Program-made: the position numbers and the translations under genes
Notes under the pieces: model-generated
What the model was told of the DNA's origin: nothing
Seen by the model: the letters and a program-made list of their open reading frames with translations, nothing else
The model's database searches: none
Assembly (NCBI GenBank): GCA_002717225.1
Contig: PBDG01000011.1
Span: 1 to 40,727, forward strand
DNA: 40,727 nucleotides
Origin: Rhodospirillaceae bacterium
GTDB lineage: Bacteria; Pseudomonadota; Alphaproteobacteria; UBA828
Direction of reading: 5' to 3'
In this document: positions 1,115-33,796 of the stretch, piece by piece
How the letters are laid out: every line of letters begins with the position of its first letter
Position numbering within the stretch: the first letter of the stretch is position 1

Positions 1115-1834
1115 CTAGTGAGCACGTTCATTTCCCCAAACCATTACATGTAATTGGGGAAGAACGGTCACAGAAAACCATTTATCGCGAAAGACCCAAT
1201 CCAATAGTAGTCGATACTGTCTCATTAAGACGTCTTCTGATTTTCTGTCTGCCCCCAACATTTTGTTGTTAGGCAAAAAGTTTGGGTTCCCAACTTGTAA
1301 ATACATTGGAATGTCATAGTAACGTTCAGCTGTACTCTTGGCAAAATCGTAATCCTGTTCATTAAATACAGTAACCTTGAGCACTAATTTAGGTCCAACA
1401 CTCTCAGCAACGCATTTGTCAAATTTTTCCCAATCTACTGCCTCCGAGGAAGAAGGTCCCTTGGGGCTGAGAAAAAGCCAATCCAATTTACGAAACCATT
1501 TGCGGGGAATAGATCCCTGGGTTTCAAGTGCAAAGGTAAAATCCTCTCTCTTTCCCTTATCAAGTAACGGTTCCAGGTCATGCATAGCCGGGTTCCCACC
1601 GGACAAGGTGACAAGAATCGGATTCCCATCGGTATGTTTTTTCACTTCATTTAATATCTCGTCCGAGTTCATCCGCCGCCACTCGCTACTTTGCTCTGGA
1701 AGAACAGCGTACAGTGTATCACACCAAGTACAGCGGTAATCGCATCCCCCGGTACGAACAAATACCGTAGGTAATCCTATAAGTGCTCCCTCTCCCTGAA
1801 CAGTCGGTCCGAAAATTTCTGAAACACGAATCAT
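1115..1834 (-). CDS. queE: 7-carboxy-7-deazaguanine synthase QueE (radical SAM)
   Basis: EIFGPTVQGEGALIGLPTVFVRTGGCDYRCTWCDT: CX3CX2C radical SAM motif and QueE N-terminus; next to queD and queC. Confidence 0.93.
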   Translation of the reverse strand: MIRVSEIFGPTVQGEGALIGLPTVFVRTGGCDYRCTWCDTLYAVLPEQSSEWRRMNSDEILNEVKKHTDGNPILVTLSGGNPAMHDLEPLLDKGKREDFTFALETQGSIPRKWFRKLDWLFLSPKGPSSSEAVDWEKFDKCVAESVGPKLVLKVTVFNEQDYDFAKSTAERYYDIPMYLQVGNPNFLPNNKMLGADRKSEDVLMRQYRLLLDWVFRDKWFSVTVLPQLHVMVWGNERAH

Positions 1835-1843: not shown

Positions 1844-2407
1844 TCATGTACCGTTCTCGGTACTGACATAGTCAGAATAACAATTAGGAGTTTCCCGGAC
1901 ACGAACTCGAGTAAGCATCGCTACACCATTGCTACGTTCTCGAACAGGTCCGGCTAATCTATGGAACCAGTGTGCAGCCAAACTCTCGGCCGTTGGCTGT
2001 TGGACAATCACATAAATTTTTGTTGATAGCCGAGTATCTGTGGTTTCACAAAACCCAAATTGTTCAAGTTTGTCAGCGATACTTGAAAGCCATACCTCAA
2101 AGTTCACATCCGGGGCGCAAAACATTTTGAGAAGTTCAGCGTCCTCTATTGTGATGATAAACCCGTGATCGCAGGGTTCATCTATGTGCCGCATCATTTC
2201 GTCTTTGAGAAATGAAAAATCTATAACCATATCTGTCTGTTCGCCTGACTCGTGCAATTGCGCGTCACGTGCGCAACAAGTTGCCTCGATCGTATAGCGA
2301 TGACCGTGAAGGTGTCTGCACTTCGATCCATGTGTCATGACACGATGACCGGCATCTATACCGATAAGTCGTGTGACCGAGTAATTTTCGACTGCGGTGC
2401 TTATCAT
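1844..2407 (-). CDS. queD: 6-carboxytetrahydropterin synthase QueD-like
   Basis: DAGHRVMTHGSKCRHLHGHRYTIEA: Cys-x3-HGH zinc/catalytic motif of the QueD/PTPS family; operonic with queE/queC. Confidence 0.9.
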   Translation of the reverse strand: MISTAVENYSVTRLIGIDAGHRVMTHGSKCRHLHGHRYTIEATCCARDAQLHESGEQTDMVIDFSFLKDEMMRHIDEPCDHGFIITIEDAELLKMFCAPDVNFEVWLSSIADKLEQFGFCETTDTRLSTKIYVIVQQPTAESLAAHWFHRLAGPVRERSNGVAMLTRVRVRETPNCYSDYVSTENGT

Positions 2408-2467
2408 ACTTCATGGATTCCTTTTTCTATGCTAGCTAACCGGCAAAGGATAAGCGTGCGTCTCGCG

Positions 2468-3187
2468 TCAATTTATCGCAATAGATGTCGATGAGTTCCG
2501 ATATTCTTGATACCCCGACTTCCGAAGATCGCAGGCTGGGCAGGCAGCGCATCCGTACCCCCATTCGTGCCGGTTTGTGCGATCGCCGAAATAACACGAA
2601 TGCGTGTCTTCAAGAATCAGGCTTACTAGTTCTGAACCGCCAAGTTGTTCCGCGAGTTGCCAGGTTTGAGATTTGTTGATCCACATAAGGGGCGAGTCGA
2701 TCACGAAACGACCATCCATCCCGATATTAAGTGCCAGTTGCATCGCCTTAAGTGCGTCGTCGCGACAATCTGGGTATCCGGAGAAATCTGTCTCACACAT
2801 TCCACCAACAATATGCTTGGCGGCGCGTCTGTAGGCTACAGCGCCTGCCATTGTCAGAAAGATTAAATTTCGACCCGGGACAAAAGTTGATGGCAAACCG
2901 TTTTCTTCCATCTGGATTGCCGTGTCACGCGTAAGCGCAGTCTCGCTAATTTCACCAAGAACCGATATATCAATCATTTGATCCTGGCCAAGTTTGTCCC
3001 GCCAATTTGGAAAATCGTCCTTGATCCTATCTAAGATCCGAGGCCGACACTCAAGTTCAACAGAGTGGCGTTGTCCGTAATCAAAACCTATTGTCTCAAC
3101 TTGAATATATTGCTCCAAAGCCCATGCAAGACAGGTGGTGCTGTCCTGCCCCCCTGAGAAAAGTACCAGAGCCTTTTGATCCCTCAT
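2468..3187 (-). CDS. queC: 7-cyano-7-deazaguanine (preQ0) synthase QueC
   Basis: [22 protein letters not shown]-loop and C-terminal zinc cysteines (HSCYFGD...[11 protein letters not shown]). Confidence 0.95.
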
Positions 3188-3198
3188 CGCGAACTCCG

Positions 3199-4320
3199 TC
3201 AGTTTGTATGACTTGTCTGCGGCTCAATTTCGTCCGCGATAAATTTTAGTTTCATATTCTCTTCATCGTCTCCTCCTTGATCGCGTACGATGCGAACCAA
3301 AAAATCACTTAGCAGTCGTATATCTGGAGCGGTATTTTGAAGTTTGTTCCAAGGCCGATCTTCACCAGGAAACTTCCAATACCCAGAAGTCCACGCTACG
3401 TGCTCTTTCAAACACATTATCTTGTCTGCAAATGAATTCCGGTCACGAGCGGCGTGCCGAGCATAGGCCATTTCCATAGCGTAGCCCATTGACTGAATAC
3501 CTGCACCGTGGACCAAGCGCGATGTTTTTGGATTCATCCCCCCCCAAGCTTCAGGAAATACGTCCTGAACGGCACCATAGAAATCACTTATTAAACTAAA
3601 GGCACGGTCTTCACCGTCCGGCATATGAATAAACTCACGAATGGCTCCGTTGCTTCTTGAATTCATTATTGTTTTCTGAATCGCATTGCTTGACAAAATC
3701 CCGGAGGGATTTGTGTGCTGACGTATTACGCTAAAAAGTGAAGATTTTTTGTCAAAATTAAGCCTGGCAGTGAGGGCCGCGGCAAAAGACCTATTTGATA
3801 ACCGATAGGGAAGCCCTTTAACCGAAGGTAGTAGTTCATATATCAACTCTTTTGGAAGTGGGCGGGTATTATTAATTAAAATAAATTGGCGCCTTAATTC
3901 CTCCTCGTCCTTGCAAACGATTGCAGACACAAAAATTTGAAAATCGCGATCTGCAAGAGGCTGCAGGGCAGACAATCGTTGTTGACCATCAACAATCAAG
4001 CCACACGGGCCATTAGAAATATCAATTGTGACTTTTGCAGTGCCATCATTCGTATCGGTCATGGTCACACCATTCACGAAGGCGAGCACAACAGAATTCG
4101 GCAAAACAGCTTCATCACGCTTAAGGTAATCTCGTATTTCATGGATATGAGTTGAGATTTTTGGGCGCTGAAAGCCGAACAAATCACCCTGCTCAGAACG
4201 TCCTGCTCGCTTGACTTCTGCAAGTTCGAACACTTCTTGTGCGGTCGCGGCGAATACAAAAACGTCGTGTTTTTTACTCTGCCGCGCTTTGATCGCTTTG
4301 AAACTCAGATTCTGTGTCAT
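3199..4320 (-). CDS. dpdB: DGQHR-domain (DndB/ParB-like) protein, DpdB paralog a
   Basis: [34 protein letters not shown] and [20 protein letters not shown] motifs; next to TGT-like dpdA; clear paralog of 5629..6747. Confidence 0.82.
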
Positions 4321-5632
4321 TTAATGGGTGGCTTTCTAGTTGGGCAATGTGTTTGCCATAGACAGCTAGGTTATGAATTCCCCGTCTCTTGTTTCGGTTA
4401 CTTGCTCGAAAAATGACAACATCTATCGATATAGATTGGCAAATATTACAATCACAATATTTCCATGGTCTTGCGGATAGAGTGCGTGCGGTACGTTCTC
4501 GCACCGCATCAATCTTCTTTTTATCACGATCCGTTAAACCATTATCCCGCCCGAATATTAGTGCTTTATTGTAATGAATGACGGCATCCAGTGCCTCTTC
4601 CATCGCAGCCTCATTACGGTCATAGGCTCGTACTAAATCCAATGCGGTACTTTCCCTATTTTGCAAATCTTCCTGAGAATATGCTCCCTCTTTTACGAGT
4701 CTCATAAGGGCATTATTCTCCAGAGCCTGAGGAATTCTAATGGCTGTAAAATATTCAAGTTTTTTACCATCAGAAGGCATGAAATAATTATATCTGGTAT
4801 CTTTAAAAGCACGAATGAGCGGCGATGTGGTATCAAAACTAGACAATTTGTGCCTAAGGAATTCTGTAATCTGATCTGCTTTGGCAAACCCTAAGATGTG
4901 AAGTTGCGGCTTTTCTCCGATCTCATCACGAATGGCATCCAGAACAATATGTATTTGATGGGCTTTGAGGGGTGCCATACCACCAACAGCAAGATACTGA
5001 TAACCCATAGAAACAAGTTCGTTTGCGGCACTGGCCATGGATAGCGGAGACCACCCCTGAATAACACCGACCGGTGTAAATTGATTTCCAAGACGCTGGC
5101 TTCGTTCCAAAAATTCTCGAGCATTAGACAATGTGAGTTCATATCTACGACGGTTTTCAATATCCCCTGGTAGATTGGAGTTAGCTTTTGATTTTTCTTC
5201 AGAGGTGGACAACACTTCAAATGCAAAAATAATGTGATCGACCGAACATCCATGGGTGAAGCGCCCATCGCCATAAAAATCAACGGTATCTTCTGCCGTA
5301 AACGGTGGTTCGGTCATCTTATGATATGTGAACGCTCCACAATCGCCAAAAACCAATGAATTTGGGTAATCCTTTTCGTGATATCGCAGAAATTCCCTGG
5401 CACCGACCCTTCGGAATCGCATGGCCTGGGACTCACTGTATTTTCCCGAAAACATCCCTCCAACAATTCCGCGAGAAACTAAAATTCCATCATACGGCGC
5501 GTATCCGAGAAGCTCATGTGGAAACACGTCATCCCAATATATTTCACGTTCCGGCGGAGAACGGTCCGTCAAAAAATCGTAGTTTGGGTCAACATAATCC
5601 AGGCTATCCGCGAATATGAATTTCATATTCAA
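4274..5632 (-). CDS. dpdA: TGT-like DNA 7-deazaguanine transglycosylase DpdA
   Basis: TGT-fold sequence (LVFGDCGAFTYHK, GVIQGWSPLSMASAANELVSMGYQYLAVGGMAPLKAHQI) and C-terminal zinc site YCDCNICQS...H; sits among queE/D/C and DGQHR genes. Confidence 0.88.
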   Translation of the reverse strand: MNMKFIFADSLDYVDPNYDFLTDRSPPEREIYWDDVFPHELLGYAPYDGILVSRGIVGGMFSGKYSESQAMRFRRVGAREFLRYHEKDYPNSLVFGDCGAFTYHKMTEPPFTAEDTVDFYGDGRFTHGCSVDHIIFAFEVLSTSEEKSKANSNLPGDIENRRRYELTLSNAREFLERSQRLGNQFTPVGVIQGWSPLSMASAANELVSMGYQYLAVGGMAPLKAHQIHIVLDAIRDEIGEKPQLHILGFAKADQITEFLRHKLSSFDTTSPLIRAFKDTRYNYFMPSDGKKLEYFTAIRIPQALENNALMRLVKEGAYSQEDLQNRESTALDLVRAYDRNEAAMEEALDAVIHYNKALIFGRDNGLTDRDKKKIDAVRERTARTLSARPWKYCDCNICQSISIDVVIFRASNRNKRRGIHNLAVYGKHIAQLESHPLNDTESEFQSDQSAAE

Positions 5633-6747
5633 TCCTGTGATGCCGCAAAATCTAATTGAACGAGCAATTCAGCAAGAGACTTAATATGCTTGGGCAAATT
5701 CTGTACTTCATTCCACCGAAGTCCCAATCCCTCCCATGTTCCTTCAGTCCAACGACAGTGTTGTTCAATTCTATGTAATGCCTCTCTTACTTCTTGCTGA
5801 GGGTTATTGGACTTGTGTACCCGCGGCATTATTCGATCCATGAGTACGCCCATTGCTTCTATGCCTGCCGAATGCATTAAGCGACTCTCGGTGGGTTTCT
5901 TGCCCCACGCATCTGGGAACTCATCTTTTACGGCACTCCAGTAAATACACATGACCCGATACATGGCATCAACATTAGAATTTCCTTCGCCGAGATTCTT
6001 GAACAGCGAAAGCGCCCCATAATTGTTAATGGACCGTTTCATAACGTTGATCAGTGCAGTGTCATGAATTACCGCTTTTTTATTTGGGTCTTCGGCGGAA
6101 ATTCGCTTGATCAAATCATGGAACGGTGAGGAAGGATCTCGATTAAGAAGATTACATAGTTCGCTTGGTATTTTACGCGCTGTTAGGTCTGGTGGTAATT
6201 CCGCATCAATTTCAGGCAATAATTCATTGATAAGTCGAACCGGGAGTGGTTTTGCTTTGTTGACCAATATGAATTGCTCACGCTGCATTTCTAGGTCAAC
6301 TGCAGCAAACCCGACGACCGGTACTGGGATTTTTTGATTAGTGGTCTTGGATAGCGCCAATGACCGTTGTTGACCATCAACGATCCAAGCCATTCGCTTG
6401 CCCTCTTCGCGAATTGGAATTTGGAGGGTTCCAATACTCGAAATATTCATCAGACCCTTAGGTGAGGGACCGCGAGATTGCTTGAACAATGAATCAGATG
6501 AGAGCGCGAGAATAATGGCATTGGGAAACAAAACACTACCTCGGTTCAAATACTCCACAATTTGATTGACGTGACGTTGAATCTCTTTTCGCTGAAAACC
6601 TTTTAGATCATCTGCCTCGTCTCGATAGATGCGACTAATTTCTGCTACTTTCAATATGTCGGATCCTCGAAGAAAGAATGAATACACTGTCAATCCGTCT
6701 CCTTGGCTTGTCCGAAGCGCGCGAACCGAAATTACCTTTTTTTTCAT
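5629..6747 (-). CDS. dpdB: DGQHR-domain (DndB/ParB-like) protein, DpdB paralog b
   Basis: MAWIVDGQQRSLAL, QFILVNKAKPLPVRLINELLP and FPDAWGKKPTESRLMHSAGIEAMG motifs; 4-bp ATGA-type overlap with dpdA. Confidence 0.82.
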   Translation of the reverse strand: MKKKVISVRALRTSQGDGLTVYSFFLRGSDILKVAEISRIYRDEADDLKGFQRKEIQRHVNQIVEYLNRGSVLFPNAIILALSSDSLFKQSRGPSPKGLMNISSIGTLQIPIREEGKRMAWIVDGQQRSLALSKTTNQKIPVPVVGFAAVDLEMQREQFILVNKAKPLPVRLINELLPEIDAELPPDLTARKIPSELCNLLNRDPSSPFHDLIKRISAEDPNKKAVIHDTALINVMKRSINNYGALSLFKNLGEGNSNVDAMYRVMCIYWSAVKDEFPDAWGKKPTESRLMHSAGIEAMGVLMDRIMPRVHKSNNPQQEVREALHRIEQHCRWTEGTWEGLGLRWNEVQNLPKHIKSLAELLVQLDFAASQD

Positions 6748-6748: not shown

Positions 6749-7699
6749 TTATTTTCCTAATTTCTTCGAGTGCATCTCGACTGCTTGTTTATATAGATTT
6801 TTAAATCTCCCTTGTTCACAAGCAATTTTGTGATGATCCCGCAAACGCCGAAGCAATTTCCCCGACCCTCCACCATAATTTTCTATATCAATAGAAATCA
6901 GACTGAGAATGTTTTCGTTGGTCTCAACAGGGCGTTTAATCCTTTTTGGAGGAGTCCAATTTCTGATTGCATCAGCAACGGCGTCTTGATCATTTCTAGC
7001 GTTAACACCAAGTGTCGTTGGATTTTCGATTACAAGGTCCACATAATGCCGCATTGCACGTTGCGAGAAATCTCCCATTGCGCCCTTGTAAGTGCTGTTT
7101 GGCCCATTTAATTTACTGTCATATGGCATAATGCATTGTTTAAATTTATCATCAAAAATGTCTTCTAGACCGCGTCCAAAAAACCGTACCATATCAATTT
7201 TTTTTTCGTGAATTCTCCCTATATCGTTTCGCACCATCTTGGCATAATTTTTTGACAAGGCAAAAAGTAGAACGCATTCCGAATTTTTATTATCGTTTAC
7301 TATATTAGCAATGGTCCGACCACCTCGTCTTGATGTGATCAAATCCCACCAACGCGTAGGGGACCAAGTATCATCCGATATTTTTTTAATAACACTGTCA
7401 GGACCATATGAAATTGTAAGATTGTAAGGTGTAATAGGTTCATTTCGACTACTAACTAAACCCATACCCGCAGATATGATCCACAAAGGCGCATCAAGTA
7501 TTCGCGCGGCAGCGGTGGCCTCTCGGTATGAACGACCAGCATACAGATCGTAAGCCTCAACCCTCATTTTGCTAAGGTCTACGCACTGTATCCATTTCTC
7601 AGCAACTTCTGTTATTGATCCAGTTTGCAGTTCTCTTACACAGAGAGACGGAGGGTGTCGTTTTCTGCTCGTGCACGTCGTGACTAAGCAAAAATTCAT
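6749..7699 (-). CDS. Candidate DpdC (conversion of dPreQ0 to dADG), YaaA/DUF6884-like N-terminus
   Basis: MNFCLVTTCTSRKRHPP...DLYAGRSYREATAAARILDAPLWIISAGMGLVSSRNEPITPYNLT: looks like a DUF6884/YaaA-type domain. The name rests on position in the modification operon and remembered family features. Confidence 0.5.
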   Translation of the reverse strand: MNFCLVTTCTSRKRHPPSLCVRELQTGSITEVAEKWIQCVDLSKMRVEAYDLYAGRSYREATAAARILDAPLWIISAGMGLVSSRNEPITPYNLTISYGPDSVIKKISDDTWSPTRWWDLITSRRGGRTIANIVNDNKNSECVLLFALSKNYAKMVRNDIGRIHEKKIDMVRFFGRGLEDIFDDKFKQCIMPYDSKLNGPNSTYKGAMGDFSQRAMRHYVDLVIENPTTLGVNARNDQDAVADAIRNWTPPKRIKRPVETNENILSLISIDIENYGGGSGKLLRRLRDHHKIACEQGRFKNLYKQAVEMHSKKLGK

Positions 7700-8332: not shown

Positions 8333-11300
8333 ATGGAACCAGGCGACTTCGTACGTCTTGAGATTGAATGCCAAGAACCTTACGGCATTGGCAAATTTGA
8401 AAGCCATGAAGACGACGTAGTCACAGTTTCCTTTTTTGATACCCCCGTAACTGAGGCCGTTCGCGTTCAGGCACCATTTGCCGCACTTAGGCGTGCAAAA
8501 GTGCCGCGCCAAACACGTGCCTACTGGTTCGACCCCAGGCAAAGCGTGTGGCGTGTTGGACGCGTCATGGACCATGAAGTCGAAGACGACGACGTCGAAG
8601 TTCGCTTTCCAAACCAGGACGACAAATTCTTACCGGTGTCCGATGTCTTCGTTCGTTGGGATCGACCTTTGGAAGACCCCGCCGGCTATTTGGCGCAGAA
8701 GATCAATGAGACCCCTCTCTTCTCTGATGCGCGTAGCAGATATGTCAAAGCCCTGATGGCCCAACGAAGGGCGAGCATGGGCATGCCCGCCCTCTTCTCA
8801 TCCATCATCGACTTGGAACCTCATCAAATCGAGGTCGTCAGGCGCGTCCTTCAAGATCCGTTTCAGCGCTACCTGTTGGCTGACGAGGTCGGTCTTGGCA
8901 AAACAATCGAGGCTGGTGTCCTCATTCGTCAGTACGTTTTAGACGATCCTGTTGGACATCGCGTCGCGGTGATTGTGCCACCCGCCCTTGTTCTTCAATG
9001 GCGCGATGAACTCCGAAGGCGCTTCCTTCTCGAAACAGAGTTAGATGACACGGTCCTTGTGGTGTCTTCCGCAGACCGCGATGCAGTGGATGAAAGTCTG
9101 GACGGTGTAGGAATGGTGGTCCTCGATGAAGCCCACCATATCCATCAAGGCCACTGGTTATTCGATCTTCTTGTGAAGCAGACCGCGCAACTTCCCAGGT
9201 TTCTTCTGCTGTCAGCAACACCCGTGCTCGGCAATGAGACTGGATTTTTGGAGATGCTCCACCTCTTGGATCCTTTGGTTTTTCCACTTGATACGCCGGA
9301 CGCATTTCGTCGCAAGATCAGTAATCGACAAACCTTAGCCGAAGCCGTCGCTGGTTTGATTCCCGAGAATCACCTTCAACTTGAGGACTATATCGACGAT
9401 TTGGTCGAGATTTTTCCAGATGATGCAGAACTCGCTCGGTTGACCGCAGAGTTGAGCATCATTGTCGACCGCTTCCCGGACGAAAATGATCCAGAGTTAC
9501 TCGATGCATTGTCAGCATTGCGCTCCCATGTGGGGGAAACCTACCGGTTGGACCGCCGCATACTGAGAAATAGGCGCAAAGGGGTCCCTGGTCTAACGCC
9601 GGATCGTTCGGGAGTTACCTTTGTTGATTTCGCTCCGCCTTCAATGACTCAGGCTGTCGAGGCACTCGAAGAATGGCGTCGCACTGCTTCTGCACGACTC
9701 GCCGACACTCCGGAATGCGAAGAGGCACAGGCGCTCAGCGCTTGGTTCTTTGAGGTCTTAAAGTCCCTATCGTTGCGGGTTTCGCCCGAAACTCTGATCA
9801 GTTCATACATTGCACCAGGACTTGCCAATTCGAGTGGAGAGGAAGCCCGCGCGCTGGAGGATGTCCTCTATTGGTTTGAGTTACTCGGAGAGGAACAGGA
9901 ACCCTTTCGGGCGGTTGCAGAAATCATCGAGACATCGGACTTGGGAACAAAGTTCATAATTTTCTGCAGCGATCAGGAAGTTGCAAACAAACTGCGACAA
10001 GATCTCGCCTCCGGGTTGTCGGTGCCCGTTGATCGATACGAGGATAGCCTATCCGAGGACTACGCAGAAAGTGTCTTTGCAAGATTCCAAGACGACCCCC
10101 TGCACCGTGTGCTTGTGTGCGACCAACGCGCAGAGGAGGGCCTAAACCTCCAAGGGGGCGACAAGGTAATTATCCATTTCGATCTTCCCTATTCGCCCAA
10201 TCGCATTGAGCAAAGGATCGGCCGAGTTGACCGCTATGGGACAGGGTCTTCGGTTCAGTCGATCGTGATCCGGTGCGCCTCCAACTCCTTCGAAACGGTT
10301 TGGAGTGTCTGCCTAGAAAGCGGACTCGAGGTCTTCAATCGATCGATTGCAAGTCTCCAGTACTTGATTGAGGACGAAATGCGTTCGTTCGGTCATCGGG
10401 TCCTCTTTGAGGGCATTGAAGCGATCGAAGATATACAACAACGTCTAGGTGGTTCGGACGGTATGATCGCAAAGGAGTTACGACGCATTGACGATCAGGA
10501 TGCCTTGGACGCTCTGATTGTTCCCACTGAGGAGAGTTATGATGAACTCTTCGACGAGGACGATAATTGGCGTGAGTTCGAGGCAGCAGTCGACGGATGG
10601 CTCATCGACATCCTCAATATGCGGAAGAAAGACGGCCCCGATATAGGCGCTCTTCCGCCAGACGATGCTGTTTCACGCTACATGTTAGTGCGGAGGGGCA
10701 ACGAAACGCTTATTCCGCTAGATCGCTTTCTGGCCAGTTTTATGGAAGCCTTGGACCTTGATGCTCCCGGGTCTTCTTATCACACCCCTCTTTCTTATCC
10801 TTACAGTAGCAGGCGACGCACCTCGATGTTGCAGAAGGCTCGCGAAGAGAAGGTTCGCCTTCTCAGATATGGCGACACCTTCCTGAGAGGGTTGACCGAA
10901 TTGACAACACTCGATGATCGAGGACGGAGCATCGCGCTATGGCGTCAACGAACCAACTACCACTGTGAAGAATTGGCGGATCTCTATTTCCGTTTCGATT
11001 TTTTAATTGAAGCTGATACTGATGAGGCTGCGCGGAATTACGCTGACGCGACGGCCAGTGATCAAGAAATAGCAATCAATGCTCTTCGGCGACGAGGCGA
11101 CATGGCCTTTCCGCCCAGCTATCAACAAATTTGGTTTGATGGTGAATTGGAACCTGTCACCGATGAGAGTGTTCTGCAATTATTGCAGGAGCCATACCTC
11201 AAAGTCCCACGAGATGATGGTAGCAGGGATCTCAATTTGAACTGGGATCGATGGGCGAAACTCAAAACGATAGAGATCCAGGTTGTCGATTATTGGTCTG

Positions 11301-11620
11301 ACATTGTTCCGCATGCGCGTCAAAAAGCTGGGGTCTCACTTCGTCAGAGAAGTGATTTAGAGAGGAGGATTGCTCAAGCTCTCAAGGCGTCTAAAGAAGT
11401 CGACAGAGCACGCTTCGCCCAACTCCAAACACGGATTCGTCACTCAGACCACATGGATGCGGAATTCGAAGAACGTCTCCTCGAAATAGAAACAAAAACA
11501 GCGCAGGATTTGTACAGGGGCATAGAGGTGCCCCGCATAACCTTGGACATAATGGGCGCGGTCTTTCTCTCGCCGCACTCTCTTGATTATTTGGCATCCC
11601 GGCGCGGTTTGGTCGCGTAA
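8333..11620 (+). CDS. dpdE: SNF2/RapA-like helicase DpdE
   Basis: ADEVGLGKTIEAGVLIRQY (Walker A), VVLDEAHH, LLLSATPVLGNETGFLEML, QRIGRVDRYGTG; first gene of plus-strand operon. Confidence 0.85.
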   Translation: MEPGDFVRLEIECQEPYGIGKFESHEDDVVTVSFFDTPVTEAVRVQAPFAALRRAKVPRQTRAYWFDPRQSVWRVGRVMDHEVEDDDVEVRFPNQDDKFLPVSDVFVRWDRPLEDPAGYLAQKINETPLFSDARSRYVKALMAQRRASMGMPALFSSIIDLEPHQIEVVRRVLQDPFQRYLLADEVGLGKTIEAGVLIRQYVLDDPVGHRVAVIVPPALVLQWRDELRRRFLLETELDDTVLVVSSADRDAVDESLDGVGMVVLDEAHHIHQGHWLFDLLVKQTAQLPRFLLLSATPVLGNETGFLEMLHLLDPLVFPLDTPDAFRRKISNRQTLAEAVAGLIPENHLQLEDYIDDLVEIFPDDAELARLTAELSIIVDRFPDENDPELLDALSALRSHVGETYRLDRRILRNRRKGVPGLTPDRSGVTFVDFAPPSMTQAVEALEEWRRTASARLADTPECEEAQALSAWFFEVLKSLSLRVSPETLISSYIAPGLANSSGEEARALEDVLYWFELLGEEQEPFRAVAEIIETSDLGTKFIIFCSDQEVANKLRQDLASGLSVPVDRYEDSLSEDYAESVFARFQDDPLHRVLVCDQRAEEGLNLQGGDKVIIHFDLPYSPNRIEQRIGRVDRYGTGSSVQSIVIRCASNSFETVWSVCLESGLEVFNRSIASLQYLIEDEMRSFGHRVLFEGIEAIEDIQQRLGGSDGMIAKELRRIDDQDALDALIVPTEESYDELFDEDDNWREFEAAVDGWLIDILNMRKKDGPDIGALPPDDAVSRYMLVRRGNETLIPLDRFLASFMEALDLDAPGSSYHTPLSYPYSSRRRTSMLQKAREEKVRLLRYGDTFLRGLTELTTLDDRGRSIALWRQRTNYHCEELADLYFRFDFLIEADTDEAARNYADATASDQEIAINALRRRGDMAFPPSYQQIWFDGELEPVTDESVLQLLQEPYLKVPRDDGSRDLNLNWDRWAKLKTIEIQVVDYWSDIVPHARQKAGVSLRQRSDLERRIAQALKASKEVDRARFAQLQTRIRHSDHMDAEFEERLLEIETKTAQDLYRGIEVPRITLDIMGAVFLSPHSLDYLASRRGLVA

Positions 11621-14250
11621 TGACTGTATCTAACTCTATCGGCAGATCCTTGTTTGACTTCCGTCAGTTGGAACAGTCGCTAGCGGACTGGCCGCAGAAT
11701 GCTCGTAACTTGAGCGATGTTACGGGATTTAAAGACGGTATTTACAACCGCATCCATCAGATTCTGCTGCAAGCGAGTGATCTGCAGCGGTTGCCCAATT
11801 TTAATGACCTTTTGCCGCTTATTCGCCAGGTTGTCCTCGAGCGGTTGTATGGATCGGGGGTCGCAAAGCTAAAGGTTAACCTCGGCAAGGGATGGCCCGA
11901 ACGTGAGATCTGGGAATCTTTTGGCTTTAGGTGCCAGGATGCTGTGGACCACCGAGTGGTTACACCAACGGCATGGCACCCCGATTGGCTTCCATTTCCT
12001 TGGGGTGAACGAACCGACGAGAATGATCACGTCGACATATTTTCTGACTGCTTTAAGAAAACTGCGGTCCGGGCAGATGCCACAATCCCGATCGATCCTT
12101 TTGTCGGTGAACTCACCGACTACGACACTTACGTTTGCCCTGGGCAGAAGGAGGCCGTATTAAGCGCTTTGCTCATGCCAGAGGGGTCGACGCTGATCGT
12201 CAATCTTCCAACAGGCGCGGGTAAGACCCTCGTAGCTCAAATACCCGTCCTTATGAATGGGCTGGATAGAGGTCTTTCCATTTTTGTTGTGCCGACGACT
12301 GCATTGGCGATTGATCAAGCGCGCCGTATGCAGCAACTGCTGCTCAGGCGAACTCACGCAGAAGTCCCTCCACTGGCTTGGCATGGAGAACTAGACGAAC
12401 ACAAGAAGGAGACGATCAAGAGCAATATCAGACAAGGCAAGCAGGGGATTATTTTTGCCTCGCCGGAGGCTGTGACGGGTGCTCTGCTACCTTCGATTTA
12501 TATCGCCGCGAAGTCGGGACTGCTCAGGTACCTCATCGTCGATGAAGCGCATCTGATTGCGCAATGGGGGGATAGTTTTCGTCCGGCGTTCCAAACAATT
12601 GCAGGTTTGAGGCGTGGTTTGTTGGAAAGCGCCCAGGGATCTGCCTTCCGAACGATTTTGATGTCAGCAACATTTAGTCCTGAGAGTGTGGAAACTCTCG
12701 ATAAGCTATTCGGCCCACCTGAAAAAGTACAAATGGTTTCGGCCGTGCATCTTCGACCGGAACCGAGATATTGGGCCGTTGCCGCTGAAAACGAAGAGCA
12801 GAAGCAAGCGTGGGTCCTCGATCTACTGAGGCACGCGCCAAGGCCCTTCATTATGTATGTCACTCGGAGGGAAGATGCGAATAAATGGAAGTGCGTTCTT
12901 GCGAGAGGGTTGGATAATGTACGCATTGCCAAGTTTACAGGGGAGACCGCAAATCTTACGCGCGAACAAGTCATTCAGGATTGGGCTGAGAATAATCTCG
13001 ACGGTGTCATCGCGACGTCAGCTTTTGGTGTCGGCATCGATAAAAGCGACGTTCGCACTGTTATTCATGCCACGGTGCCAGAATCTCTTGATCGCTTTTA
13101 TCAGGAAGTTGGACGAGGCGGGCGCGATGGGTACGCCTGCCTTTCTGTCACGATCTATTCCCCAAGGGACATTTCTATTGCCGAAGGTATGTCAACGGGA
13201 GGCAGGCTTAGTAAGGAAAACGCCTTCTCCCGTTGGACAGCAATGTTCACTAGGGGAGAGCAACTTGGCGATCTAAGGAATGTAGATTTACAGACCGTGC
13301 CCCCCAATCTACAGCAGCAAACCGACTTCAATCAGAGTTGGAATATGCGAACGCTTATTCTGATGGCGCGCGCAGGATTGGTACAATTGGCGTCGACCCC
13401 CCCAGAAACGTTGGGACGTTTAGAGCAAGAGGATGACGCTGCTTTTGAACAACGCATCGAGAACCATTGGACCGAGTATTACGCGAAAATCCCGATTAGG
13501 ACCCTCGATGGCCAGCATCTCGACCAGAACTATTTCAACGAGATTATTGGTGCGGAGCAGTCTCGAAACCGTGAGGCGGCCAATAAATCGCTGGACTTGC
13601 TTCTCCGTGCACTAAGCGGAGATATGGGAATGGGCGAGGCTATTGCTCAACTCTACACGTCCAGGACACCGGGCCGGGAAATAATTGTCTCTCGGGTATG
13701 CAGGGGGTGTCCTGCACTCGGCAGAACGAAGGCGGCAGAAGAACTCGCTTATAATATCCCAATCGGCGTCGGCATTCACCATATTGCTGAGCAAAGAACG
13801 ACGGACTTGGGCGAGGATTTCTCCGAAAATTCTCACGCTTTGGTGATTTACTATCCAGAGGGAACGGATCGAATCACTAAGGAACTCGAGCAAGCCTTGA
13901 GGTCCCTCGTAGAAAATTACGGTGTTTGTGAAGTGTTTGCTTCGACGAAATTTTGGGATAGTGAAACCAGCTTAAAGGGTCTTCATAAACACGTGCCTCG
14001 GAATTTTATTGTTCGACGTGACTTAGAGTCTAAGGATGATCGAGGCAGTATACTCCCTCTACCAAGGGTGACTGTCCTACTTCCTTGGGGGCAGGAACCG
14101 ATCCCGTATGATGTCGAGTACTCAGAAAGGCCTATCAATGTGATACTGGCTCCAATAAATATACGTTCAGTCTATGATCATAAAAGTTACGTCGAAATTT
14201 CCACGAACTGCGTTAGTCTGAGGAAGTTTATCGAGAGATCTACGATATGA
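11620..14250 (+). CDS. dpdF: RecQ-like DEAH helicase DpdF
   Basis: PTGAGKTLVAQIPVL, IVDEAHLIAQWGDSFRPAF, MSATFSPES, ATSAFGVGIDKSDVRTVIHATVPESLDRFYQEVGRGGRDG; start overlaps dpdE stop by 1 nt (TAATG). Confidence 0.85.
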   Translation: MTVSNSIGRSLFDFRQLEQSLADWPQNARNLSDVTGFKDGIYNRIHQILLQASDLQRLPNFNDLLPLIRQVVLERLYGSGVAKLKVNLGKGWPEREIWESFGFRCQDAVDHRVVTPTAWHPDWLPFPWGERTDENDHVDIFSDCFKKTAVRADATIPIDPFVGELTDYDTYVCPGQKEAVLSALLMPEGSTLIVNLPTGAGKTLVAQIPVLMNGLDRGLSIFVVPTTALAIDQARRMQQLLLRRTHAEVPPLAWHGELDEHKKETIKSNIRQGKQGIIFASPEAVTGALLPSIYIAAKSGLLRYLIVDEAHLIAQWGDSFRPAFQTIAGLRRGLLESAQGSAFRTILMSATFSPESVETLDKLFGPPEKVQMVSAVHLRPEPRYWAVAAENEEQKQAWVLDLLRHAPRPFIMYVTRREDANKWKCVLARGLDNVRIAKFTGETANLTREQVIQDWAENNLDGVIATSAFGVGIDKSDVRTVIHATVPESLDRFYQEVGRGGRDGYACLSVTIYSPRDISIAEGMSTGGRLSKENAFSRWTAMFTRGEQLGDLRNVDLQTVPPNLQQQTDFNQSWNMRTLILMARAGLVQLASTPPETLGRLEQEDDAAFEQRIENHWTEYYAKIPIRTLDGQHLDQNYFNEIIGAEQSRNREAANKSLDLLLRALSGDMGMGEAIAQLYTSRTPGREIIVSRVCRGCPALGRTKAAEELAYNIPIGVGIHHIAEQRTTDLGEDFSENSHALVIYYPEGTDRITKELEQALRSLVENYGVCEVFASTKFWDSETSLKGLHKHVPRNFIVRRDLESKDDRGSILPLPRVTVLLPWGQEPIPYDVEYSERPINVILAPINIRSVYDHKSYVEISTNCVSLRKFIERSTI

Positions 14251-15149
14251 CGATTCTCAATATTGCGAATGACGGATATTACAATGTCCTTGTTACACTC
14301 TGCGGAGCTTTGGCCGTTGAAGGGGATACAAACAAGGATAAGTTGATTGATATTTGCTCTAACAAAGAGGAAAACGCGAGAAAAAGAGTTAGTCAAACGC
14401 TTTTAAGATGGACGCAATTGGGCTTCTTTGTTGAAAATGACAGCAAAATTTCTTTTTGCGACGACGCAAAAAATATTAAGTTAAACAAAGGAAATATAGA
14501 CAAATTTAGAGATCAACTAAAATCTGTGATTAGAAACATCCTATTTGATCAATCTAACAATAAATATTTTTGGGATAGTGAAAGAACAAAGGCGGCCGAT
14601 TTCACGAGGGCTCTATCGTGGGTCTTGGCCCAAGATATCTACAATTTCTCTCTCGCAAAAATCGATAAAGTTCAGACGTTTGAATCGCTACAAATAAAGG
14701 ATCCAGAAAAAAGGCCAATCCAAAACGATGTCAGGTTAAATGGCCTCAGAGTATGGGCAAATTATTTGGGATTTGCTTGTAAATTCAAGGAATTAATGGT
14801 CGATCCGACGGAAGCGATCAAGCAAGAGGTATTATGTCTATTTAAAAAGAATAAGGCATATGCAGCTGATGATTTCGTCAGCGGATTGGCCGAGAGATTA
14901 CCCGTTCTCGACGGAGGGGAGTATCGACTTAAGGTAGAGAGAGAGCTTGATCCTCAACAATGGCGGAAACCCCAGAATCCTGAGACGCTTTCTACATCGC
15001 TTTCCCGTGCACTCTGGAGACTAGAACTCTCCGGATTCATAGAGTTGGAGGCGCGGGCAGATGCTCGAAAGAACCGCGTAATCCAAAGAGAGGACGGGCA
15101 TCAGTTAAAGTCGTTCACTCACGTGGTCTATCGAGGAACGGGTCAATGA
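14247..15149 (+). CDS. dpdG: DpdG-like protein of unknown function, possible winged-helix segments
   Basis: Position between dpdF and dpdH with 4-nt ATGA overlaps at both ends; wHTH-like segments near both termini. Confidence 0.65.
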   Translation: MTILNIANDGYYNVLVTLCGALAVEGDTNKDKLIDICSNKEENARKRVSQTLLRWTQLGFFVENDSKISFCDDAKNIKLNKGNIDKFRDQLKSVIRNILFDQSNNKYFWDSERTKAADFTRALSWVLAQDIYNFSLAKIDKVQTFESLQIKDPEKRPIQNDVRLNGLRVWANYLGFACKFKELMVDPTEAIKQEVLCLFKKNKAYAADDFVSGLAERLPVLDGGEYRLKVERELDPQQWRKPQNPETLSTSLSRALWRLELSGFIELEARADARKNRVIQREDGHQLKSFTHVVYRGTGQ

Positions 15150-18100
15150 CCGCATTACATTCATATTGGCCCACAGAAGGCGAGATAAGCCGTTGCATCA
15201 AGACTGAGGCGGAGTCCATGTCAGATGCCGCCCTTCTCTCGGTCCACCAGGAAACTCCTCTTTCAATTCGCAATGCCGGCAGTAGTTCAAAGCGAGCGAC
15301 TACTGAAGACGAGTTGCTAGATAGTTTTCTAACGACCGATTTGCCTGAAGGAACATTGTTGCTGGTCATAACCGGCGCGTCGGGTGCAGGCAAGTCCCAT
15401 ATGATCCGATGGCTTGCCGCGCATTTAGAGCGCGACCCACGTGCGGAAAAAATGCACGTGATCCGTGTGCCCAAAAGCGCAAGTCTCAAATCAGTTGTTG
15501 AACTAATTCTTGAGCCTCTAAGCGGAGACGAACGGTTTGCGCAAGCTCGTAGTGAATTGGAAGACGCTGTTTCGTCGGTGAATCCAGAGGATGGGGCAAT
15601 TCACTTTCTAGCGAATCTTCAGATCGCTCTTCGGGAGGAAGCAAGAATACTGAAGGCAAAACTAGGGGGTGAACCAAATCATCCAGATATACGCGCATTA
15701 AAATCTAAACTTAATCACGCTCAAAATTTGCCAAATTATTTCAATGATAGTGCTTTAACTCAATATTTTCAGCGGGATGTCATGCCTAGGATCGTTGAAA
15801 GGGCTATCCGCGGTAAGGATGAGGCGCAAGACGAGCAATTTCCTCAGTTTAAGGTTGCAGACCTCAAACTACCCGATGACGTTGATCTGGGTGGGGCTGG
15901 CCAGTCAGTCAAACGTTATTACCAAACCATTCTCAATAGAGGCCAGGATGATGATGGTTACAAGGTAGCTGCTGAGGTCCTTAATTCTGTTATTGATAAG
16001 GCAATTCGTAATTTATTCCGTCTCAATCAAGCAATGGGGGGGGTGACACTTGAGGAAATAGTGTTGCGGATTCGGGATCTCCTCTTGGAAGAGGGAAAAG
16101 AACTAGTTCTCCTGATTGAAGATTTTGCAGCCCTGTCTGGAATTCAAGAAGTGCTTCTAAGTGTATGCATCCAAGAGGCGGTTCGCGATGGCCAGACGGT
16201 CAGATCGCCGATGCGTACCGCCCTTGCTGTAACAGACGGTTATGAGTTGACTAGTCGCGATACAATCAACACCAGAGCTAAACGGGAATGGGTCGTCGAA
16301 TCGATTTTGCCGAGTGAGGAGGACGTGCTCAAACGTACAGAATGTTTGGTCGCTGCCTATCTCAATGCAGCTCGATGGGGGGAGATGGAGTTGCTCCGAA
16401 AGTTTGAGCAAAGCCGAAACGATGGAACAATGGGCTTGACCAATTGGGTAGAGGTTTACCGCGATGAGATCGAATCCGAGGAAGAGTCGAAACTACTCGA
16501 AGCCTTTGGTAGCGTAAATGATGTGCCTCTTTTTCCCTACAACAAGCACGCAATCGGGAAACTGGCAGATGACTTTTTACGAAAGGGTGGCGACCTTCAG
16601 TTCAACCCACGTACGGTGATCAATCACGTTATACGTGACCCCTTAAATCGCCACAGAATAAACTTCGAGAATGAAGCTTTCCCACCCAGTAATTTTTCGG
16701 ATCATCCTGCAAAAGCGTCATTGGCGAGTTGGATATCGTCCAAAAATCTGGGTCAAGAAATTGAGGGTCGACTGCGACAGACTATAATCTACTGGGGCGG
16801 CAATCCGGATATGCCGGAAAACCTCGCCTCCATAAACAGCGGTATATTTAAGACCTTTTCACTGCCGACACCTGAAGAACTTGATATTGGGGCTCCCCCC
16901 GGGCCTGTCGACCCTCCGCCGGACATACCAATACCACCAGTCATCATAGCGCCGCCGGAAAACAATGCGTTCATTGAAGGCTGGCAAGAACGGCTTGAGA
17001 AGTGGGTTACAGGAGAACGCCTCCCTCAAAGGTATGCGAACGATCTTCGTAAATCGATTATTTCCGCATTGAATTCCGCAGTTGATTGGAACGCTGCATG
17101 CATAAAACCCGTTATTGCTAACCAAAATATAATTGAGCTGCCTCATGCGGCAGGAAACCGGCCTTCTAACGAAAAGAATCTAGTGATTGCGAAAAGTACT
17201 CGTGACGATGATGGCCAATTGCGACGAACAATGTTGGCTTTTTTAAGGTGCGATAACCAAGGTTCGACCTTGGATTACCCTGAAGCAGCTGAAGATACAG
17301 CTTTAATCGCGAACACCCTTGACAGGTTAGTTCCTGAGTATCTCGATGGCATCGCTAAAGAGGCCTCCAAGGACGCTTCTATCCTTGCGACAGCGTTAGT
17401 ACGCCAAGGGCGAGTTCTAGGTGTCGTGCCCAAAAAGGTCGCTGGGCGACCGTCGATTGTTGAAGCGGTGTTCTCGCCGGCGCCAGAGTTTGTAAGTTCC
17501 ACTCACCCACCCGACTCACCCGAAAAGCGATGGCTTGACCTAAAGACTGAAGCGGCGTCGGTCCGCAAAGCATTACAGGACCTGTTAGCCACCAAAATTG
17601 GTGCTTTTCAGGGGACAGGAAGCACTGTCTATGCGATCGATATCGCACGCCTCAAATTAATTGAAGAAGAAACGCTTCCCCCACTGAAGGAATTAGATCC
17701 TGACCAACGCGCTCATTTTCGCAACATTACAAAAAACCAGTTACAGTCGCGTAGTAATTCTATCGCGCGAAACCTTTCTGACCTGAATACATTGATCAGA
17801 AGCGCATTGGGTGAGGAATTTGACAAGCAAGTTATCGTCAATGAGGTAAGGCAGCTAATTGACCTCGCAGAGGAGGCTGGAGTTTGGCCCCCCCAATTCC
17901 CTCATCAAAAGCAGGCTCTTCTCAACCGATTAGACGAATTTCGAGACTCTCCCGTTTCTGACGCACTTGATAAACTCGAGCACATCACAACAGCGGTCTC
18001 TATAGAAAATTTGGACGATGTAATTTATGCACTGGGCAAGATCGACATCGATGAAACGCACCGGATCAATAAATTCATAGAGCTGCTGAACTTGTTCATG

Positions 18101-18232
18101 AAGGAGCTGGGAGCGGAGATTAATTCCCGCGAACAGGCAGACCAAGGTATGAGCATCGCCGACCTCGTCGCAAAAAACCAAACGGTACTCGACGAATTAA
18201 AGTCGATTTTTGCCAGTTCGAACGGATCATAG
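15146..18232 (+). CDS. dpdH: P-loop ATPase DpdH
   Basis: LLVITGASGAGKSHMIRWLAAHL Walker A, LVLLIEDFAAL Walker B-like; proline-rich linker; position in operon. Confidence 0.7.
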   Translation: MTALHSYWPTEGEISRCIKTEAESMSDAALLSVHQETPLSIRNAGSSSKRATTEDELLDSFLTTDLPEGTLLLVITGASGAGKSHMIRWLAAHLERDPRAEKMHVIRVPKSASLKSVVELILEPLSGDERFAQARSELEDAVSSVNPEDGAIHFLANLQIALREEARILKAKLGGEPNHPDIRALKSKLNHAQNLPNYFNDSALTQYFQRDVMPRIVERAIRGKDEAQDEQFPQFKVADLKLPDDVDLGGAGQSVKRYYQTILNRGQDDDGYKVAAEVLNSVIDKAIRNLFRLNQAMGGVTLEEIVLRIRDLLLEEGKELVLLIEDFAALSGIQEVLLSVCIQEAVRDGQTVRSPMRTALAVTDGYELTSRDTINTRAKREWVVESILPSEEDVLKRTECLVAAYLNAARWGEMELLRKFEQSRNDGTMGLTNWVEVYRDEIESEEESKLLEAFGSVNDVPLFPYNKHAIGKLADDFLRKGGDLQFNPRTVINHVIRDPLNRHRINFENEAFPPSNFSDHPAKASLASWISSKNLGQEIEGRLRQTIIYWGGNPDMPENLASINSGIFKTFSLPTPEELDIGAPPGPVDPPPDIPIPPVIIAPPENNAFIEGWQERLEKWVTGERLPQRYANDLRKSIISALNSAVDWNAACIKPVIANQNIIELPHAAGNRPSNEKNLVIAKSTRDDDGQLRRTMLAFLRCDNQGSTLDYPEAAEDTALIANTLDRLVPEYLDGIAKEASKDASILATALVRQGRVLGVVPKKVAGRPSIVEAVFSPAPEFVSSTHPPDSPEKRWLDLKTEAASVRKALQDLLATKIGAFQGTGSTVYAIDIARLKLIEEETLPPLKELDPDQRAHFRNITKNQLQSRSNSIARNLSDLNTLIRSALGEEFDKQVIVNEVRQLIDLAEEAGVWPPQFPHQKQALLNRLDEFRDSPVSDALDKLEHITTAVSIENLDDVIYALGKIDIDETHRINKFIELLNLFMKELGAEINSREQADQGMSIADLVAKNQTVLDELKSIFASSNGS

Positions 18233-18239
18233 GCCGGCC

Positions 18240-18959
18240 ATGACGCTTTTAGACAAGTGCGCAAGCCTTCACGAAAGAACGGAGCGACTGAAAAAAATAA
18301 GAGAAACGGCCGATGAGGCTGAAGCTCTATCTACCCGCTTGTCGGAGGCGCGCCGCCTCAAGGAAAGCGTTCAGATTGTCTCGAAGAGGGTGGGGTTTCT
18401 CAAAGAGCACGAGGTTGAGGTCGATCTGTCCGTCGCGGCACAACTCGCCCCTCTCGGCCCATTGGAAAAAATTATTCAGCAATTCTCGGAGAAGCCAGAG
18501 GCGGCGAGTCTGACGAAAAGAAAGTACTGGACGAAACTTCTCGAACAGGGGGCGGCGTGGCGAAAGAAACTAGATGCCGAAGCAATTGAATCCTGGGGAG
18601 GCTTTATTGACAAACAGTGCCGAGGGTCGTCACCAAAACAGCTACGCAAGACACTCGCTCAAACCGAGAGCAACAAAAGCGCCCTAGAAAAATACGGACG
18701 CATATATGACGAATTGACTTCTCTTCGCGACGAATTCCCTGAGTTTTCTGAGTTTTCGCAGACGGTAGAACACGCGCGTGACTTATCTGGAAATCTCGAA
18801 CGCACTGCTCGCGCGTTCGACCATGATGTCCCAGAGGACGTGAAAGTGTTTCTGGCGGCAATCGACCGAGGAGGTGCATCAATAGAACTCCTAACCGAGG
18901 AGGTGTTGACTTGGTTGCGCGAAAATAACTCTGAAGGTGATTACCGGATCGTCAGGTAA
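18240..18959 (+). CDS. dpdI: DpdI-like coiled-coil protein of unknown function
   Basis: MTLLDKCASLHERTERLKKIRETADEAEALSTRLSEARRLKESV...: heptad-like helical sequence; ATG at 18240 follows the dpdH stop and is preferred over the ORF-track start at 18210. Confidence 0.6.
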   Translation: MTLLDKCASLHERTERLKKIRETADEAEALSTRLSEARRLKESVQIVSKRVGFLKEHEVEVDLSVAAQLAPLGPLEKIIQQFSEKPEAASLTKRKYWTKLLEQGAAWRKKLDAEAIESWGGFIDKQCRGSSPKQLRKTLAQTESNKSALEKYGRIYDELTSLRDEFPEFSEFSQTVEHARDLSGNLERTARAFDHDVPEDVKVFLAAIDRGGASIELLTEEVLTWLRENNSEGDYRIVR

Positions 18960-18964
18960 CGTTG

Positions 18965-21900
18965 ATGTCAGAAGAAGAACTTCTCGAGAGCGTTCTGGAC
19001 CGTATCGAAGAGCAAGAGGCGAGATTGCTCGTCTGGGGACTGACGGACACCGCCATTAGTAGGGAAGAACTAATCGAGATTATTTTCCCCTTGCTCGATG
19101 ATGCGTTGGGGCAAGGTTTTGAAGGGTTCCTCGAGACCGAAGACGTCATAAGGGAAATGATCAATCGTTGCCTTCTATTCGAAACGCAAGATGGGCATTA
19201 CGAAGGCTATCGCTCTAGGATGGCAGAAACAGTTCGCTTGCTTTTTTATTTGCGCCAGCTTTTCCCTAAGCATTCTGGTCGAGATGGATGGCAACAAGGG
19301 CGCACACTGGTGTCGGACTTTAGGTTTTCTCGTCGTCAACGGCATTACCCTAAAAGGGATATTGATCCCGCCACGGCCATCAATGACTTAATCAAAGACA
19401 CCTCCTCGCAGACGTTGGAGCGTGCTTTGGAAGTTATGATTCTCAATAGAAGTGAGGATTTCAAGCTCTCCGAGTTTCAGGTGCGTGCGACCCGAAGAAT
19501 CATTTCGGGCATTGGACAAACGTGGTCAACCGGGACTTTGGTTAGTGCCGGCACCGGTAGCGGAAAAACTTTGGCTTTCTATATTCCCGCGCTTGCCCGC
19601 ATCGCTGCACACCTTCTGAGGGATCCACCGGACGATCCGAACTGGGTCAAATGTCTGGCGCTTTATCCACGCACAGAACTCCTCAAAGACCAATTCTCAG
19701 AAATCTACAGCGAAGCTCGGCGTCTTGATCAATTTACCAAAGAAAACCGACGCAAGATTCGCATCGGTGCGTTCTTCGGAGCGACACCACTCAACGCAAA
19801 AACTTTATTGGAGAAGCAGGTTGAGGGCTGGGAGAGAAAGGATGACGGATTTCGCTGCGGTTTTATGGCCTGTCCCGATCGGGATTGTAGCGGTCCACTC
19901 GTCTGGCCAGAAAATGCAATCAGAGAGAACCGGGAAATTCTTATATGCAGCAGTTGTGACTGGGAGATTACGAATGAAGAAGTGTCACTGACACGGCAAA
20001 CTCTTCAAAAAAACCCTCCTGACATTCTTTTCACAACAACTGAGATGCTGAACCAGAGAATGTCTGATAGTTGGTCCCGTCATCTCTTCGGCTTAGGCCC
20101 ATCCGCCTCCCGTCCACCTGAAATGATGCTCCTAGATGAAGTGCATACCTACGCGGGATTTCATGGCGCCCAGGTAGCGTATCTATTGCGGCGTTGGGCT
20201 TACCTAGTCAAATCGCCTGTCACCTTTGTTGGATTGTCCGCCACACTTCGTGACGGCAACAGGTTCTTTGCCCGATTGACGGGATTATTTGAGAAACGGG
20301 TTTTAGAGATTGCGCCAAAACGCGCCGACATGACCTCAGAGGGCACTGAATATTTGTTAGCCCTTAAGGGTGACCCAGTTTCGAAGACTTCTCTGCTCTC
20401 CACGACTATTCAGACAATCATGCTGCTCTCTCGGATGTTGGACCCGGCCCAGGAGCCTAGCCGCGGCTTATTCGGCAAACGGATATTTGCATTTACAGAC
20501 GATATCGACGTTACCAACCGTCTTTATTTTGGAATGCTCGATGCGGAAGGTCGCAAAAATACTGGGGAAGCGGACATGGTCCGCCATCCAAACGGTGGCC
20601 TGGCGCATCTAAGGCAACCACTCATTTCTAGAAGCCGAGAGCACTACGGGCAAAATTGGTCAGCACCCCAGTATATAGGACATGATCTTTCTGCGTGTAA
20701 AGAGATTGGGCGTACCAGTTCACAAGACCCTGGAGTTATTGCCAACCTGGATATCGTCGTCGCAACTGCGTCTCTGGAAGTGGGATTCAATGATCCGTCA
20801 GTTGGTGCCGTAATTCAACACAAGGCCCCGAGAAACACTGCCTCCTTCTTGCAGAGAAAAGGCCGAGCCGGCCGTTCGCGAGAAATGCGACCCTGGACAG
20901 TTCTGGTGCTTTCCGACTATGGCCGTGACCGGCAGGCATATCAGGCCTACGATCATCTCTTTGATCCTGAGTTGGACGTACAGTCTTTACCCCTTGAAAG
21001 CCGTTACATTCAGCACATTCAGACTGTCTATGCTTTGATAGACTATCTCGGACGTCGACTTTCCAGCCATTCAACAAAAGGCAGTGTGTGGACGGATCTT
21101 TCTGGCCCTGCTAACTGGCCCAAAAAACGCACTCGCCAAGAATTTCTTAGTAAAATTCTTACTGAAATTCTCGCAAACGAAAACGCGTCTGAGTCTCTCC
21201 AAAAATACTTGGAAAAAAGCCTCGATATAGATGACGCGGACTGCGAGGCCGTGGTTTGGAAACATCCAAGACCTCTTATGACGACCGTTATTCCTACGGC
21301 ACTTAGGCGATTGAATACCAACTGGAAACGGCATGGGGATGATCGTGACGATTTCTTCATCAAAAATTCTCCCCTCCCAGAGTTTGCACCAGCAAGCCTT
21401 TTTAGCGACCTAAATCTTCCCGAAGTTCGGATTAATCTGCCTTCAGATTGGGATAATTCCCCGGAACGAGATCCTGCTGCTATGCCAATCGCCCAAGCCT
21501 TGCAAACTTTTGCGCCAGGTCGTGTGTCGCGACGATTTGGTGTGGAGCACGCGCGCACTCGTCATTGGATAGCGCCTGAGCCTGAACAAATTAGCGGTGA
21601 AGCGGCACAAGACTTTCCGCTTGAGGGCCGATTTTCCGGCGACTTACTTGGAGAATGGCAGTCTTTGATTGGGGAGGAGATTACCACTCTGCCAGTCTTG
21701 AGACCTTATGAAATCAATCCAGTTCATCCCAGCCAATCGATCCGTGATACATCAAACGCGCGTCTGTTATGGCGCAGTCAGGTCGTGCGGCGCACATCTG
21801 GTAGTAGTCTTTCGCTGCCTAAAAAATCGATGTGGGGGAATGTTATCCAACAGGTGGATGCTTTCACGCACGGCCAGCAAAACCCCATTGAGATGCGTCG

Positions 21901-28779: not shown

Positions 28780-28849
28780 ATGACTTACAAAAGCTGATAG
28801 TCTTAATGATGATTGTAACAGCCGCGCAACGGCAAGGGGAGAAACTAAG

Positions 28850-29395: not shown

Positions 29396-29397
29396 GC

Positions 29398-30948: not shown

Positions 30949-30963
30949 GCCCTGGATAATGAC

Positions 30964-33779: not shown

Positions 33780-33796
33780 CCTATCCCTCCTACTCC

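Follow-up and report, generated by a model that had tools for sequence, protein, structure and literature searches.

Two ancient DpdB paralogues flank dpdA in a widespread layout of the Dpd DNA-modification cluster

The Dpd cluster of a Rhodospirillaceae bacterium carries two DpdB paralogues, one on each side of dpdA, and represents an ordinary case of a widespread, old and under-studied two-DpdB layout. The window, i.e., the whole stretch of DNA analysed here, comprises 40,727 nt of contig PBDG01000011.1, from an assembly of 2.78 Mb. The comparative evidence leans to an NTPase cofactor in which DpdB1 and DpdB2 would form a heteromer and DpdB2 would be the direct partner of DpdA; this is the most likely reading of the pair (probability of about 0.45).

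In Salmonella Montevideo, DpdA acts with a single DpdB and ATP to give dPreQ0, from which DpdC yields dADG. DpdA and the single DpdB are reportedly enough for preQ0 insertion in Salmonella. Parts of the Salmonella DpdA/B/C biochemistry are summarised in PMC12839542 and PMC11888242, and a DndB-like protein of the ParB fold binds ATP and GTP (PMC12704722).

Gene organisation

The window contains a complete Dpd (7-deazaguanine-in-DNA) system, dpdA-K with queC, queD and queE, in which dpdI is the sole weak assignment. The genes dpdC-dpdB1-dpdA-dpdB2-queC-queD-queE follow one another on the minus strand, and dpdE-F-G-H-I-J-K-D run divergently on the plus strand:

1115..1834, minus strand, queE (NCBIfam QueE, 303.5 bits)
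1844..2407, minus strand, queD-like 6-carboxytetrahydropterin synthase (Pfam PTPS, 95 bits)
2468..3187, minus strand, queC, preQ0 synthesis (Pfam QueC, 232 bits)
3199..4320, minus strand, dpdB2, DpdB paralogue downstream of dpdA, 373 aa, placed like the lone dpdB of E. coli, where the order is dpdA-dpdB (NCBIfam DpdB, 372.6 bits; B2 clade, 100/100)
4274..5632, minus strand, dpdA, DNA-guanine transglycosylase (NCBIfam DpdA, 521.9 bits; profile match to PDB 7UI4, 'DNA-guanine transglycosylase', E 1.5e-182)
5629..6747, minus strand, dpdB1, DpdB paralogue upstream of dpdA, 372 aa, between dpdC and dpdA (NCBIfam DpdB, 466.1 bits; B1 clade, 100/100)
6749..7699, minus strand, dpdC, 1 bp upstream of dpdB1 (PADLOC DpdC, 257.9 bits)
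8333..11620, plus strand, dpdE (NCBIfam DpdE, 936.8 bits)
11620..14250, plus strand, dpdF (NCBIfam DpdF, 848.6 bits)
14247..15149, plus strand, dpdG (NCBIfam DpdG, 261.3 bits)
15146..18232, plus strand, dpdH (PADLOC DpdH, 416 bits)
18210..18959, plus strand, probable dpdI, a weak match (PADLOC DpdI, 25.5 bits, E 2e-6)
18962..23545, plus strand, dpdJ (PADLOC DpdJ, 1662 bits)
23545..24096, plus strand, dpdK (PADLOC DpdK, 185 bits)
23987..26368, plus strand, dpdD (PADLOC DpdD, 246 bits)

The genes dpdC-dpdB1-dpdA-dpdB2 and the que genes are the modification half of the system and show the widespread two-DpdB layout. Both dpdB genes abut or overlap dpdA, the overlap of dpdA and dpdB2 being 47 bp. 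The listed start codon of dpdA is TTG, with an ATG two codons further in.

The G+C content is mostly 0.41-0.52 within the Dpd cluster and 0.56 to its right, as expected for a mobile island; no tRNA genes were found within the window. The right flank (26735-40708) is occupied by ordinary metabolism and transport genes of higher G+C (GMC oxidoreductases, a branched-chain-type ABC transporter, a Bmp-like binding protein), marking the right edge of the island near 26.4 kb.

The two DpdB proteins

The initial annotation placed two DpdB reading frames around dpdA, and their coordinates, strand and lengths (373 and 372 aa, both minus) are all exact. Every conserved block that it quoted (VDGQQR, QFILxNxxxPLPxxLIxELLP and FPxAWG...SRLxHxAGIxxMG) is found in both proteins, with QFILVNKAKPLPVRLINELLP, SRLMHSAGIEAMG and FPEAWG among the forms that the blocks take, and its description of the paralogues as widely divergent agrees with the alignment, in which 112 of 348 residues are identical (32%). 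The similarity of DpdB1 and DpdB2 is nevertheless far above chance: the local alignment scores 430, compared with a mean of 35 for shuffled sequences (standard deviation 4.5, maximum 50), and the profile-profile comparison gives a probability of 100% (E 4e-75). Family membership was judged with NCBIfam NF041060, whose curated cut-off of 300 bits is exceeded by both DpdB1 (466.1 bits) and DpdB2 (372.6 bits); the PADLOC DpdB model matches the two copies with 463 and 407 bits, respectively. The assembly holds no DpdB-family member besides these two, and a PDB sequence search with the DpdB profiles gave nothing relevant.

The VDGQQR motif, the form in which both proteins carry the DGQ(H/Q)R core of the family, is retained in 88 of 89 B1 and in 91 of 91 B2 relatives, GFQR is invariant in the relatives of both copies, and so is the N of the QF.L.N block; altogether 46 alignment columns carry the same residue at ≥95% in both B1 and B2. 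The median dN/dS over 128 close pairs is 0.087 for B1 and 0.091 for B2 (0.069 for dpdA), and both copies are under purifying selection. Decay of either copy is ruled out by the motif conservation and by the dN/dS of ~0.09. The initial annotation regarded the pair as retained, and at the sequence level no loss of the fold or of the active residues is seen in either copy. Single-chain AlphaFold2 models have a mean pLDDT of 85.2 for B1 and 88.5 for B2, with pTM values of 0.56 and 0.78, respectively. The best PDB match of the B2 model is the pNOB8-like ParB-N (probability 0.99, E 1.4e-3), with ParB and sulfiredoxin next in rank, but the TM-scores are low; the matches of the B1 model include ParB-N, ParB-CDP, PadC and SspE, all with E ≥ 0.15.

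Phylogeny

The initial annotation suggested a phylogeny of the DGQHR proteins from dpd loci. A tree built from 85 DpdBs contains two ancient clades, B1 (36 sequences) and B2 (39 sequences), each monophyletic with 100/100 support; six single or orphan DpdBs, the single-copy E. coli type among them, fall outside both. The nearest relationships are mirrored in the two clades, the window grouping with a Kiloniellaceae locus (74% and 71%) and then with locus L078. With two fully supported clades and mirrored near relationships, the pair must have arisen once and been inherited or transferred together. A recent or lineage-specific duplication is ruled out by the separation of B1 and B2 in the tree. 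The single E. coli DpdB shows a mean identity of 0.359 to B1 and 0.360 to B2 (the tree leaves the relationship of the three groups open), and being equidistant, it does not tell by its sequence which copy is the 'original'; by gene position this would be B2.

Distribution

The initial annotation knew one dpdB per Dpd cluster, implying that a pair is rare, and this part found no support. A public-genome scan was performed with a DpdA alignment, and the best 80 of 322 candidate dpdA loci were retained. DpdB1 upstream and DpdB2 downstream of dpdA are present in 76 of these 80, a figure that describes this branch of DpdA rather than the prevalence over all Dpd systems, since the loci were picked by similarity to the query DpdA. 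The order is dpdC>dpdB1>dpdA>dpdB2 in 72 of the 76 and dpdB1>dpdA>dpdB2 with no separate dpdC call in the other four, one of which has dpdC fused to dpdB1. The two-DpdB loci are spread over Alpha-, Beta- and Gammaproteobacteria. Nine alphaproteobacterial plasmids encode a close DpdB1, and every one of them has the pair; RefSeq annotates both genes of such plasmids as DpdB. In the GATOR-GC survey (2025), dpdB has 801 additional copies, more than any other dpd gene (PMC11888242). Multi-copy dpdB is thus already on record and annotation of both genes is routine; in the literature, no discussion was found of why dpdB is multi-copy. Class- and phylum-wide scans with DpdB found few genomes with a protein above the cut-off, and the scan of viral_contigs with DpdB1 found no relative.

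Losses within the pair are one-sided. DpdB2 accompanies dpdA without DpdB1 in two genomes: Novacetimonas maltaceti, with dpdC-dpdA-dpdB2 and no other DpdB in the genome, and Azospirillum oryzae, with dpdA-dpdB2, no second DpdB above the cut-off, and neither dpdB1 nor dpdC in the cluster. No genome was found with an intact DpdB1 alone. In a Mesorhizobium MAG, dpdB2 is broken by a stop codon, and a second cluster of the same genome encodes two DpdBs above the cut-off. In Acetobacter pomorum (1899-4076 of its locus) dpdC-dpdA is present and DpdB-family genes are absent from the whole genome, so either the cluster is dead or insertion is independent of DpdB.

DpdB-family genes are also observed in unusual contexts. 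In Variovorax plasmids from linuron soil (L150, 29997-31564; also L019), a B2-type DpdB stands as an orphan next to type I-E cas genes; a DUF6884 gene follows it, and no dpdA is annotated within the ~49 kb shown around it. Further family members with no annotated dpdA nearby occur on a Nonomuraea plasmid (L128, 25190-26296), a Euzebya plasmid (L129, 10219-11364) and in the Myxococcus phage Mx4 (L127, 4743-6149). The arrangement dpdC-dpdB1-dpdA-dpdB2-queE-queC is found on a human-faecal scaffold (L126, 6072-12205) deposited as 'Bacteriophage sp.' (MT835580, unverified), which may be a misclassified bacterial contig.

Gene coupling and covariation

Of 89 loci, 73 have a dpdB1-dpdA junction of -4 bp. 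In 89 of 90 loci dpdA overlaps dpdB2 or adjoins it, and dpdC is the gene immediately before dpdB1 in 83 of the 85 loci measured. Such tight packing of dpdB1-dpdA-dpdB2 fits a stoichiometric assembly. An in-frame DpdC-DpdB1 fusion of 703 aa is encoded by a MAG of Candidatus Accumulibacter adjunctus (L068, 4896-7004), as a single case. An 814-aa frame in locus L147 that looked like a DpdA-DpdB2 fusion was rejected as one, since it is an open frame that overlaps dpdA but is read in a different frame.

Across 47 dereplicated loci, the distances correlate at 0.87 for A-B2, 0.83 for B1-B2 and 0.71 for A-B1, the bootstrap 95% interval of the difference between A-B2 and A-B1 being 0.11-0.20. The partial correlation of A-B1 given B2 is -0.04, and that of B1-B2 given A is 0.62. 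These values have the pattern of a chain A-B2-B1, as far as can be read from mirror-tree statistics, which are indirect and affected by differences in rate.

Discussion

We know of no settled mechanism by which the NTPase of DpdB aids a transglycosylase in swapping a base within duplex DNA. The initial annotation put forward three roles for the pair: a heteromeric cofactor, two target specificities, or a regulatory copy. In the reading that we prefer, which is the first of these, DpdB1 and DpdB2 would form a heteromeric ParB-like NTPase cofactor for DpdA. DpdB2 would contact DpdA and drive the exchange of guanine for preQ0 in DNA, with DpdB1 as its obligate or strongly preferred partner subunit, and the heteromer would replace the DpdB of single-copy clusters, which is presumably a homomer. 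The pair is not strictly essential, since two genomes have DpdB2 as the only DpdB beside DpdA and one has dpdC-dpdA but lacks DpdB, although those clusters may be defunct.

The position of dpdC next to dpdB1 in 83 of 85 loci, the natural fusion of the two genes, and the joint absence of both from the A. oryzae cluster would also agree with a step-wise division of labour, in which DpdB2 serves DpdA in the insertion of preQ0 and DpdB1 serves DpdC in the conversion of dPreQ0 to dADG. We consider this unlikely, as DpdC correlates no better with DpdB1 than with DpdB2 (difference 0.016, interval -0.06 to 0.07), the Novacetimonas cluster retains dpdC without any DpdB1, and the fusion is known from one MAG. 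DpdC is also found in the absence of B1: in L124, a cluster with just one dpdB that is nearly the same as the E. coli cluster, a DpdC match precedes dpdA. It is less probable again that each DpdB forms a homomer of its own and that the two homomers direct DpdA to distinct sequences or strands of DNA. Two such specificities would account for a long-standing divergence (32% identity) with both copies kept, but the entropy along the two proteins shows, outside the termini and loops, no confined hypervariable stretch that would resemble a recognition region, and the same core is retained by both. Moreover, no locus has an intact B1 without B2, except for the Mesorhizobium cluster with the broken dpdB2, whose genome has a second intact pair.

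A regulatory role of one copy (DpdB1 more probably than DpdB2), similar to that reported for DndB in the phosphorothioation systems, seems improbable, and the leads for it are faint. Both copies match the Pfam DndB family; in Salmonella, DndB regulates the transcription of its own operon (PMC4507180). The divergent intergenic region of dpdC and dpdE has two ACTAN5TAGT palindromes (7789-7801 and 8052-8064), the whole 2.78 Mb assembly having 12. The two are possible candidate operators, but the motif was chosen post hoc and other loci lack it upstream of dpdC. Pfam and NCBIfam scans found no DNA-binding domain in either copy, and the only DndB-type TACGN10CGTA site of the window lies inside dpdA, at 4615. 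Plain redundancy, with the duplicate retained for dosage, is the reading to which we give the least weight: the copies belong to the same family and share the same core residues, but the B1/B2 split is older than the spread over three proteobacterial classes, purifying selection acts on both, and the losses are one-sided.

In the broader form of the heteromeric reading, put forward equally tentatively, the two-DpdB clusters would constitute a Dpd subtype of their own. In place of a DpdB homomer, it would use a heteromeric ParB-like NTPase assembled from the two ancient paralogues; DpdB2 would drive DpdA, and DpdB1 would connect the complex with a second partner, either DpdB2 itself or DpdC. 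A subtype with two specialised DpdBs, together with the natural losses of one copy and the DpdC-DpdB1 fusion, offers a genetic handle on the mechanism of DpdB; separate deletion of the copies could separate recruitment, insertion and dADG formation.

Comparison with known systems

DndB, the DGQHR protein of DNA phosphorothioation, belongs to the ParB-like nucleotide-binding family, and both window DpdBs score above the gathering threshold of Pfam DndB. With the NCBIfam model DGQHR_dnd_1, in contrast, they reach 45 and 60 bits, the cut-off being 450. No Dnd modification genes were found among the window proteins scanned, and the locus does not combine Dnd genes with a TACGN10CGTA operator in a promoter, the features of a DndB regulator. 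The clusters of E. coli strains and of Enterobacter pPOL9A (Salmonella Montevideo type) have DpdA, DpdB and restriction genes that belong to the families found in the window, but only one dpdB, downstream of dpdA, whose product is ~36% identical to the B1 and B2 clades and falls in neither. Plasmid B of Sinorhizobium americanum CCGM7 and pSR-1 of Skermanella rosea resemble the window in having dpdB-dpdA-dpdB followed by que genes, with both copies called DpdB by RefSeq. Many two-dpdB relatives have no dpdE-K/D restriction genes within the flank fetched, whereas the window differs from the alphaproteobacterial two-dpdB plasmid clusters in its queC-queD-queE order and in its complete, divergent dpdE-K/D restriction set.
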